42,025 nucleotides of DNA, taken from contig JASJDJ010000045.1 in NCBI GenBank assembly GCA_030065635.1, positions 1 to 42,025 of the forward strand, read 5' to 3'. The stretch comes from Xenococcaceae cyanobacterium MO_188.B32. Lineage in GTDB: Bacteria > Cyanobacteriota > Cyanobacteriia > Cyanobacteriales > Xenococcaceae. A program made the translations under genes and the position numbers. A model generated the notes under the pieces. It saw nothing but the letters and a program-made list of their open reading frames with translations. It was not told the DNA's origin and did not search any database. Below are positions 16,875-37,965 of the stretch, piece after piece; position 1 is the stretch's first letter, and each line of letters starts with the position of its first letter.

Positions 16875-17051
16875 AATTAAATTCTCGTTGTCAAAAAAAG
16901 TAGTAAAAGATGATATCCATCGTCTCTTTACATAATTCCCTATGTCGCACTTATATTTTGATTCCGAGAAAAAAACCGTAAATCCTTTGAATTTCTATAA
17001 CAGTACGTATTCATATTAGGACGTGAATTATAGGGTTTGCTAATCGCTAAT

Positions 17052-17301
17052 GGTGAAGCACTTTCGTTGGTGAGGCAGCGCGGTCTTGGGGAGCCAGTCC
17101 GTTGCGGTGAAGCAGTGCGTTGGGCGGGTTTCCCGACTTGAAGCAACTGCTGAACCCGAAGGGAGGTGTCCTCCGTTGTAGGAACTGGCGTAGTCTCCCC
17201 CATAAGCGCTGCCGAAAGGGTTTCCCGACTTGAGAAAAGTGAAGGTCGCGTCTTCCGAGGTCTCCTCGGAAGTTTATGACGACCGTCTGAACCCGAAGGG
17301 C
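17052..17301. repeat. Large nested foldback repeat (element A)
   Basis: A 250-base element built of hairpins inside hairpins. Pairs read directly: CACTTTC (17059-17065) with GAAAAGTG near 17233; GGCAGCGC (17074-17081) with GCGCTGCC (17206-17213); GCCAGTCC (17093-17100) with GGAACTGGC (17181-17189); AGCAG (17111-17115) with CTGCT (17147-17151). A separate 9-bp hairpin is CTTCCGAGG (17252-17260) / CCTCGGAAG (17264-17272). The words GGTGA before left arms and GAACCCGAAGGG or GAAAGGGTTTCCCGACTTGA after right arms recur. It is related to 37753-37875. An 87-codon frame on the minus strand across it is repeat-derived. Confidence 0.75.
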
Positions 17302-17759
17302 TAATTGCTAATTATTACTTTGCCTTGAGATGTCCTAACTTTCGTGGGTATTGCTGTAGGGGCAAAATTTTACTATAACCTAGATCGCCTCGGACAAATC
17401 AATTTTATATGTTTAGATGTAGTATCGGACATCCCGAATCGAATTAACTAGAGCGCAAAAAAGCGATCGCTGAATCCAAAATTAATATATTGATGGCACT
17501 GATATTTAATACTTAAGTAAGATTTTTTATAAGTAACAAACAATCTAAGATGATCTTGTAAATTGACAGAGGAAAATCTAATTATGGGTATTCAAGATAA
17601 AGCAGCAATACTGTTCAGTTAAGAAAAGTTGTTGGTTTGGAGAAGCAGGGGGAGCGGGGGCGGGAAGGTAGGGCTGTAATAATTTGCCAAATATATTCTG
17701 AGTGATTTTATTGACTAATTTACGTTCATCTACATCGAATAGTCTTAGTTCAACTATGG
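17302..17759. other. Gene-poor intergenic stretch with a possible gene stub and a G-rich tract
   Basis: No full gene. At 17584 an ATG with AGAGGAAA upstream opens MGIQDKAA and stops after 12 codons. The start resembles small CsbD-like stress proteins, so this may be the stub of a deleted gene, but the evidence is thin. A G-rich run of GGGGGAGCGGGGGCGGG type (about 17646-17665) resembles the repeat that lies inside lpxC. One HIP1 site lies at about 17463-17470. Confidence 0.35.
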
Positions 17760-37044: not shown

Positions 37045-37752
37045 ATGAACAAAGAAAATCAATTAATTCAAACTTTAGCTGTAGATATTGGTGGTAGCGG
37101 AGTTAAAATAATGATTTTGGATGCTCGAGGAAATCCTTTAACCGAACGAAGTCGCCTCAAAACCCCTCAACCGCCAAAACCAGAAGCAATTATTGAAGCA
37201 ATTGTAAATTTAGCAGAAAAACAACCAGATTACCAAAGAGTAGCCGTAGGATTTCCTGGGGTAGTCCAGCAAGGCATCACTAAAACCGCAGTCAACCTAG
37301 ATCGAGATTGGATTGGCTTTGATTTAGCTAAGACTCTTTCTCAACGCTTGGGCAAGCCAGTTCAAGTAGCTAATGATGCAGATATACAAGGATTTGGCGC
37401 GATCGAAGGTCGAGGAGTAGAATTAGTAATTACTTTGGGGACTGGATTTGGTTCTGCTTTGTTTATCAACGGCAAATTAGTCCCCAATCTAGAAATGGGA
37501 CACCACCCCTTTCGTAAAGGAGAAACCTACGAAGAACAATTGGGTAGGGCTGCTTTAGAGAAAGAAGGAAAAAAGAAATGGAATAATCGTTTAGAAAAAG
37601 CGATCGCCAATCTAGAACATTTGTTTAACTACGATACTCTTTATATAGGCGGTGGAGAAGCCAAAAATATTGAGTTTAAATTACCCGATAATGCCAAAAT
37701 CGTTCCCAATGTGGCTGGTTTATTGGGGGGAATTGCCTTGTGGAATCAGTAG
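37045..37752 (+). CDS. ROK-family / polyphosphate glucokinase-like kinase
   Basis: 235 residues. LAVDIGGSGVKIMILD is the phosphate-binding start, VAVGFPGVV and DRDWIGFDLAKTLSQRLGKPVQVANDADIQGFG include the catalytic Asp region, VITLGTGFGSALFINGKLVPNLEMGHHPF is the second glycine-rich segment, and LYIGGGEAKNI is the adenosine region. It resembles PpgK, which phosphorylates glucose with polyphosphate or ATP, and the EMGHHP signature with a lysine-rich stretch after it fits that class. The CxCGxxGC zinc site of classical ROK kinases is missing, as in PpgK. Its stop codon abuts a nested foldback repeat. Confidence 0.85.
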   Translation: MNKENQLIQTLAVDIGGSGVKIMILDARGNPLTERSRLKTPQPPKPEAIIEAIVNLAEKQPDYQRVAVGFPGVVQQGITKTAVNLDRDWIGFDLAKTLSQRLGKPVQVANDADIQGFGAIEGRGVELVITLGTGFGSALFINGKLVPNLEMGHHPFRKGETYEEQLGRAALEKEGKKKWNNRLEKAIANLEHLFNYDTLYIGGGEAKNIEFKLPDNAKIVPNVAGLLGGIALWNQ

Positions 37753-37875
37753 GGGCGAATGGTGAAGCACTTGCGGGGGTGAAGCATTGCCGCCAAAGGG
37801 GGTCTCCCCCATGAGCAAATGCTGAAAGGGTTCCCCGACATAAGCAAAGTGCTGAACCCAAAGGGCCATTCGCCC
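37753..37875. repeat. Nested foldback repeat (element B)
   Basis: A 123-base element starting just after the kinase stop codon. Outer stem GGGCGAATGG (37753-37762) / CCATTCGCCC (37866-37875) is perfect. Next layer AGCACTTGC (37766-37774) / GCAAAGTGCT (37844-37853). Next AGCATTGC (37783-37790) / GCAAATGCT (37815-37823). Innermost GGGGG (37798-37802), TCT, CCCCC (37806-37810). GGTGA precedes the left arms and GAACCC or GAAAGGG follows the right arms, as in element A. Confidence 0.8.
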
Positions 37876-37965
37876 GTACAGGAGTTCGGAGTTTGTTTGG
37901 CTTACTTAAAGATCGAAGTGACCAAAAGGGATTATCATAGCATTTGTTGCACCAGGTGGGAGTAA

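Follow-up and report, generated by a model that had tools for sequence, protein, structure and literature searches.

Nested hairpin units in a Xenococcaceae cyanobacterium genome, very probably small non-autonomous mobile elements inserted into one another

The window, by which we mean the whole 42,025-nucleotide stretch of DNA analysed here, is contig C260 of the draft genome of Xenococcaceae cyanobacterium MO_188.B32 (6.39 Mb, 281 contigs). It holds two stacks of hairpins, and their features are collected in Table 1. The first stack lies in a minitransposon, and all of its layers are enclosed by the GCTAATN heptamers of that minitransposon. The initial annotation had described repeated words and complementary arms in this region, and both were located as claimed: words of the GGTGA type begin at 17052, 17069 and 17106, copies of GAACCCGAAGGG end at 17163 and 17300, and GAAAGGG lies at 17214-17220. 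A second element, which had been placed at 37753-37875, is present at 37762-37864. The stretch 17030-17320 folds as DNA at -57.9 kcal/mol, versus -40.4 +/- 3.9 kcal/mol for dinucleotide shuffles (z -4.5), and as RNA with a z of -3.8; the stretch 37740-37885 folds as DNA with a z of -3.7. In each of these three cases, none of 200 shuffles was as good. An 87-aa open frame on the minus strand (16940-17203) crosses the nested hairpins and is very likely spurious.

Table 1. Features of the two hairpin stacks in the window.
Feature	Position	Strand	Basis or remark
Minitransposon with inverted ends (CTATAACAG... / ...CTGTAG)	16995..17359	+	Host of the whole stack; ends read by eye
Left heptamers GCTAATC GCTAATG	17039..17052	+	Sequence; like arrays in unit-free minitransposon copies
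Outer unit A1, split by A2 and D	17053..17299	+	Uninterrupted copies at C136, C203
Unit A2, in the A1 loop, short tail GAAAGG	17070..17219	+	Compared with uninterrupted A1 copies
Unit B (45 nt without A3), in the A2 loop at CTTGGGG^GTCTCCCC	17092..17192	+	A3-free B elsewhere
Unit A3, complete, in the B loop	17107..17162	+	Tag pattern and covariance model
Hairpin D (45 nt), in the A1 3' arm	17242..17286	+	Missing from uninterrupted A1 copies
Right heptamers GCTAATT GCTAATT	17300..17313	+	Sequence
GTAGGGGCGAATG / GCCATTCGCCCGTAC palindrome, opened mid-way by the second stack	37749..37879	+	Sequence; 96% identical composite at C41
Outer unit of the second stack	37762..37864	+	Sequence and C41 composite
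Inner unit of the second stack, short tail GAAAGG	37779..37829	+	Sequence, copies, covariance model

The sequence and the simpler copies found elsewhere indicate that the hairpin layers within 17052-17301 are separate small units, inserted successively. The right end of the minitransposon has 22 matching places in its own genome, the window included, and 12 of the 20 loci that were read are copies without any unit. Unit A1 is uninterrupted at C136 and C203, where it reads GTGAAGCACTTTCGTTGGGCGGGTTTCCCGACTTGAGAAAAGTGCTGAACCCGAAGGG; at the A2/A1 junction of the window, 5 nt (GGCGG) of this uninterrupted loop are absent, so the insertion was not clean. The same A2-in-A1 form was also found in C41, C107, C184 and C240, in genome G024, on a plasmid and in the second element of the window, and units nested in this fashion carry the tail GAAAGG instead of GAACCCGAAGG. 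Because it is repeated at so many places, the nested form may be spreading as a single piece, as an old composite. At six loci (L013-L016, L020 and L022), unit B without A3 occupies the identical place in other units, and the B+A3 composite recurs at C158 with 96% identity over the matched stretch, in an own-genome search that scored 40 of 80 candidates. When the relatives of the layers were compared, no second copy of hairpin D was identified; a different hairpin lies near its place in the A1 3' arm at L027. Simpler or empty versions are thus known for most layers, which counts for nested insertion, and we regard it as nearly certain that the locus consists of nested insertions of small non-autonomous mobile hairpins. 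The initial annotation had taken the stacked layers for one selected shape, a reading that we abandon because the simpler copies and the empty sites show unit-in-unit insertion.

The palindrome of the second stack, which is GTAG-ended and opened by nested units, was found in the window and at L050, in different places and with 96% identity. It looks as if the palindrome had moved together with its load.

The main unit consists of GTGA, an arm, a loop, the opposite arm and GAACCCGAAGG. It begins with GTGA and ends with AAGG, its stem has a bulged A, and its tag is flush with the foot of the hairpin. The lengths are commonly 55-59 nt when the final G is counted, that is, usually 54-58 nt inserted. 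Across 113 distinct hairpins, the eight lower pairs were formed in 92.0% of cells, compared with 67.7 +/- 1.0% in 2000 shuffles (maximum 70.8%), and the 41 hairpins that were found without an arm constraint gave 82.3% versus 56.1 +/- 2.0%. The second stem pair shows all four Watson-Crick types (GC 41, CG 40, TA 12, AT 8). The bulged A is present in 103 of the 113 hairpins, and in 32 of those 41; the inner three pairs are formed in 89% of cases with the bulge and in 32% without it.

Covariation was measured on alignment A1, which holds 70 of the 87 sequences that were left from 111 after the removal of near-duplicates; it omits L091, L094, L097 and L121 as off-type hairpins or likely chance, and 13 more only for brevity. 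Double changes occur in all eight pairs, with 108 double-change cells versus 36.4 in shuffles and paired cells at 91.3% versus 74.3%, and the covariation score of 0.482 stands against 0.183, with none of 500 shuffles as high and slid versions at 0.014-0.091, though kinship among the copies inflates such tests. Three things argue that the signal is real, namely how varied the pair types are, the slide control and the register of the bulge. The number of further pair types was unremarkable (17 versus 15.2 shuffled, a value that 77 of the 500 shuffles reached). A pattern that demanded CAG/CTG supplied most rows from L169 on, so three of the pairs are constrained by the search. RNAalifold alone recovers the outer five pairs of the stem, the pairing of the GT/AC tags and two tail pairs, and misses those above the bulge. 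The 70 units were also made into a covariance model, which found 4 places in the window, one of them at E 0.69, and at least 75 places in its own genome at E up to 1, some of them weak; with 150 of 1138 candidates scored here, and 40 of 80 in the search mentioned above, such genome counts are lower bounds.

The initial annotation had named copies that lose their pairing and arms that mutate independently as results that would speak against it, and neither was what was seen. The idea that the shape is kept and not the sequence holds within the unit, where the arms covary and all eight lower stem pairs tested have changed on both sides. Some sequence is fixed too, namely the end tags, CAG/CTG in the lower stem and the bulged A, of which the end tags are imposed by the search pattern and CAG/CTG is partly imposed by one search pattern. 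Paired arms could also arise by hairpin-templated repair without selection. The pairing of GGT with ACC across facing GA steps is present as described, but the inserted unit does not include the first G of GGTGA.

Each unit sits directly before a target G, and the target bases show no net gain or loss; one base, the shared G, is ambiguous at every junction. The hairpin units have no inverted ends and no target duplication beyond this one G. The clearest empty site was found in the IS630 transposase gene of L365, whose flanks are nearly identical to those of L219, again with no net gain or loss. In the IS630 transposase genes of L219, L360, L205 and L227, the unit lies within the Ser-Trp-Leu-Asn codons, in all four at one and the same conserved codon. 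As the transposases of L205 and L227 are clearly different from those of L219 and L360, either the site is preferred or broken copies have spread. In another IS transposase gene (L043, L044, L047), a 54-nt GTGA...AAGG insert splits a conserved stretch, and the homologue at L156, which is 70% identical over 198 aligned positions, has no such insert; by our reading, taking out the 54 nt would restore both the frame and the length.

Tandem heptamers, scored as period-7 identity of at least 14 of 21, were found at 45 of 144 distinct sites compared with 8 of 720 random positions, with targets such as GTCATTG^GTCATTG and GCTAATT^GCTAATA. The flanking base at -1 is G at 106 of the 144 sites and that at -2 is T or C at 122; the flank is otherwise variable, the G at +1 being fixed by construction and one of 145 flank pairs having been dropped. 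Palindrome centres were not clearly enriched at 8 of 10 pairs (3 of 144 sites versus 10 of 720 random positions), and at 9 of 10 pairs the counts were 3 of 144 versus 2 of 720. The orientation relative to neighbouring ORFs is mixed, with 19 same and 31 opposite among tandem neighbours and 12 and 11 inside ORFs, and no clear strand preference was seen among the 98 units classified; this comparison used mechanical ORFs and started from 142 units, of which 17 had no neighbour on one side and 27 were too near a locus end. On a plasmid of Aphanizomenonaceae TIOX110 (L359), the frame of a DEAD/DEAH helicase gene runs on through a 252-nt composite that includes a nested unit. The composite is missing at the aligned place of the Anabaena cylindrica homologue; a Dolichospermum homologue has equal query coverage (81%), with 90.3% identity.

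The end tags of closely similar hairpin cores come in three or more pairs: GTGA/GAACCCGAAGG, CG/AAGAAG (L158, L159 and L160) and AG/CGTG (unit B and a TnpB gene on a Stanieria plasmid). Similar cores with other ends suggest that tag and core are modules, a suggestion drawn by reading from a few examples. In an own-genome reverse-transcriptase ORF (L160:400-600, G000:C202), there is an apparent 51-nt in-frame hairpin insert with CG...AAGAAG ends, which represents a second class of tag. The AG...CGTG hairpin of the TnpB gene (L361:1500-1545) is also apparently in frame, and a 98% identical copy lies on a second Stanieria plasmid (H25).

The pattern GTGA-N(20-80)-GAACCCGAAGGG gave 38 matches in the own genome, a few of them overlapping, versus 0 for the reversed control. 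Of 386 genomes sampled from the phylum, 51 carry the pattern, the own genome included; single hits are near the chance level and several look like chance (for example L116, L119-L123 and L138). At least three matches were found in 19 of the 386 genomes, whereas the reversed control reached that number in a single genome (G002); every one of the 19 belongs to the order of the window, and 17 belong to one family. An exact scan of named genomes gave at least 109 stretches, and among the 80 matches listed, almost all are from Nostocales, together with Hyellaceae, Pleurocapsa, Xenococcaceae and Hydrococcus. The units are common in Nostocales and present in Pleurocapsales. Two of the 80 listed matches come from records not named as cyanobacteria. 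One, of 44 nt in Streptomyces, looks like a chance hit; the other is a full unit on a contig deposited as a Gracilibacteria MAG (L175), which is probably cyanobacterial and mis-binned. Eight plasmid records had matches. The exact pattern had no match in viral contigs, and one unit used as a query had none in phage records.

The exact ends, the lack of net duplication, the tag flush with the foot, the bulge and the preference for repeats and for hairpins are compatible with an enzyme that acts on folded single strands by cutting and joining. In the explanation that we favour, a unit would move as a single strand in its folded form; an enzyme supplied in trans would cut and join it at the tags, and would read the stem, the bulge and the tags. 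The likeliest candidate would be an HUH/Y1 transposase of the RAYT or IS200/IS605 kind, and the arms would be free to drift while pairing persists. As units favour tandem heptamers and are also seen within other hairpins, they nest. No reverse-transcriptase match was found in 3 of 14 unit-bearing genomes and no dedicated transposase was found, so the mover is one that we infer, and we hold a Y1-type single-strand route quite possible, with a chance somewhat below even.

A RAYT-like match, at least a weak one, was found in 13 of the 14 unit-bearing genomes examined. The RAYT-like genes are of different types; the protein of G024 matches nothing in G000 or G005, and one RAYT subtype as the cognate enzyme is unsupported. 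An autonomous parent, that is, a Y1 or RAYT gene between two tagged units, was not seen among 21 Y1 places of the own genome (flanks of 15 read), nor in 13 regions of eight other genomes, which cover part of their Y1 genes. The full tail word GAACCC.AAGGG lies near one of the 21 places (L085) and in one of the 13 regions (L311), on one side only in each. Words of the GTAGGGTGGGC type lie around a RAYT-like gene of the own genome (L083, G000:C255), as GTAG REPs would. IS608 needs a fixed tetranucleotide at its left flank, and the lack of one at the 144 sites counts against an IS608-like route. REPINs are paired inverted REPs in one element, and the models for REPINs and IS608 use a double-hairpin substrate; the single hairpin per unit counts against the Y1 route. 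The unclean A2-in-A1 junction also counts against single-strand cutting and joining. In G024, 17 pattern matches stand beside a single Y1 gene and no RVT_1 match, which speaks against movement by IS200-type enzymes or reverse transcriptases in that genome today, though not in the past.

The live rival is movement through an RNA copy that is reverse-transcribed or reverse-spliced, a route that Elhai and colleagues are said to have proposed for small dispersed repeats and that we consider rather unlikely here. The strong covariation is compatible with RNA, precise insertion without duplication would suit reverse splicing, and RVT_1 matches were found in 11 of the 14 unit-bearing genomes, with 9 in the own genome. 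However, there is none in G024, G199 (5 pattern matches) or G005 (4), so that a requirement for a reverse transcriptase is unsupported in these 3 of 14 genomes, although old copies could outlive their enzyme; the mixed orientation relative to ORFs also speaks against this route. Slightly less probable is that no dedicated enzyme is involved, and that template switching in replication and recombination between hairpins copy and nest the units while hairpin-templated repair keeps the arms paired. Closely similar cores with differing end tags, the missing bases at the A2-in-A1 junction, composites such as B+A3 in two host units and the many sites that are tandem repeats would all agree with this. 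On the other hand, ends that stay constant across 144 unlike sites, and an empty site with no net change, resemble a specific cut-and-join reaction. That the whole stretch is one structured regulatory RNA or terminator selected for its shape is largely refuted and very improbable, since, although it folds as RNA better than shuffles, the Rfam 15 scan gave no family match at the gathering score or at E up to 1, nearly every layer has relatives elsewhere, the orientation is mixed and there are minitransposon copies free of units. Integron attC sites and group II introns do not fit in ends and size.

A bolder form of the cut-and-join reading is that the units are a separate class of modular mobile hairpins, each of which would insert precisely, as a single folded unit, by means of an undescribed enzyme that reads structure and needs neither a resident reverse transcriptase nor a linked transposase; we are doubtful of this, and rate it a shade below template switching.

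The small dispersed repeats (SDR) of cyanobacteria are what we take to be the closest described kind. Elhai et al. 2008 (Genome Res 18:1484) reportedly described them as tiny hairpins of 21-27 nt in Nostoc and relatives that sit in tandem heptamers and minitransposons and are nested within their own copies, with a shared secondary structure and compensatory changes for SDR4-6. By this description, the units resemble SDR in their nesting, heptamer arrays and minitransposon settings, and in paired arms with compensatory changes, a likeness of description and not of compared sequences. They differ in length, 54-58 nt against 21-27 nt, and their two-tag anatomy is not known to us as a feature of SDR. 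A literature search by topic, not by unit sequence, found no description of the unit; one may exist.

The SDR work (Elhai et al. 2008) is cited in PMC3733652, PMC3116915, PMC4390886 and PMC6513891. In PMC3733652, GTAG/CGTC-tagged REPs are short dispersed hairpins of 20-40 bp with a four-base tag at the foot, REP dimers inside palindromes are reported, and a RAYT cuts single-stranded REP at the tag. Compared with REPs as described there, the units too are dispersed hairpins with a four-base tag at the foot, but the tag is GTGA, the 3' tail is fixed, the length is 54-58 nt, the units are single, and no unit-flanked RAYT was seen in the regions read. REPINs, which PMC3116915 describes as miniature mobile DNA with hairpins, share that character with the units; unlike the paired REPs of a REPIN, the units are single hairpins with exact ends. 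Non-autonomous elements of the IS200/IS605 type would have a fixed left target, as in IS608, whereas the left flank of the units is variable. Minitransposons or MITEs (PMC10969869 and others) resemble the outer shell of the first stack, which is short, has inverted ends and occurs in many dispersed copies, while the hairpin units have no such inverted ends.

We would file the units as a further member of the small-dispersed-repeat-like kind already described in cyanobacteria. With exact ends, a near-identical empty site, a conserved bulge and unit-bearing genomes in which no reverse transcriptase was detected, movement by RNA and movement by single-strand DNA can be tested apart from each other. 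Annotation is affected as well, because units break genes or lengthen them in frame.
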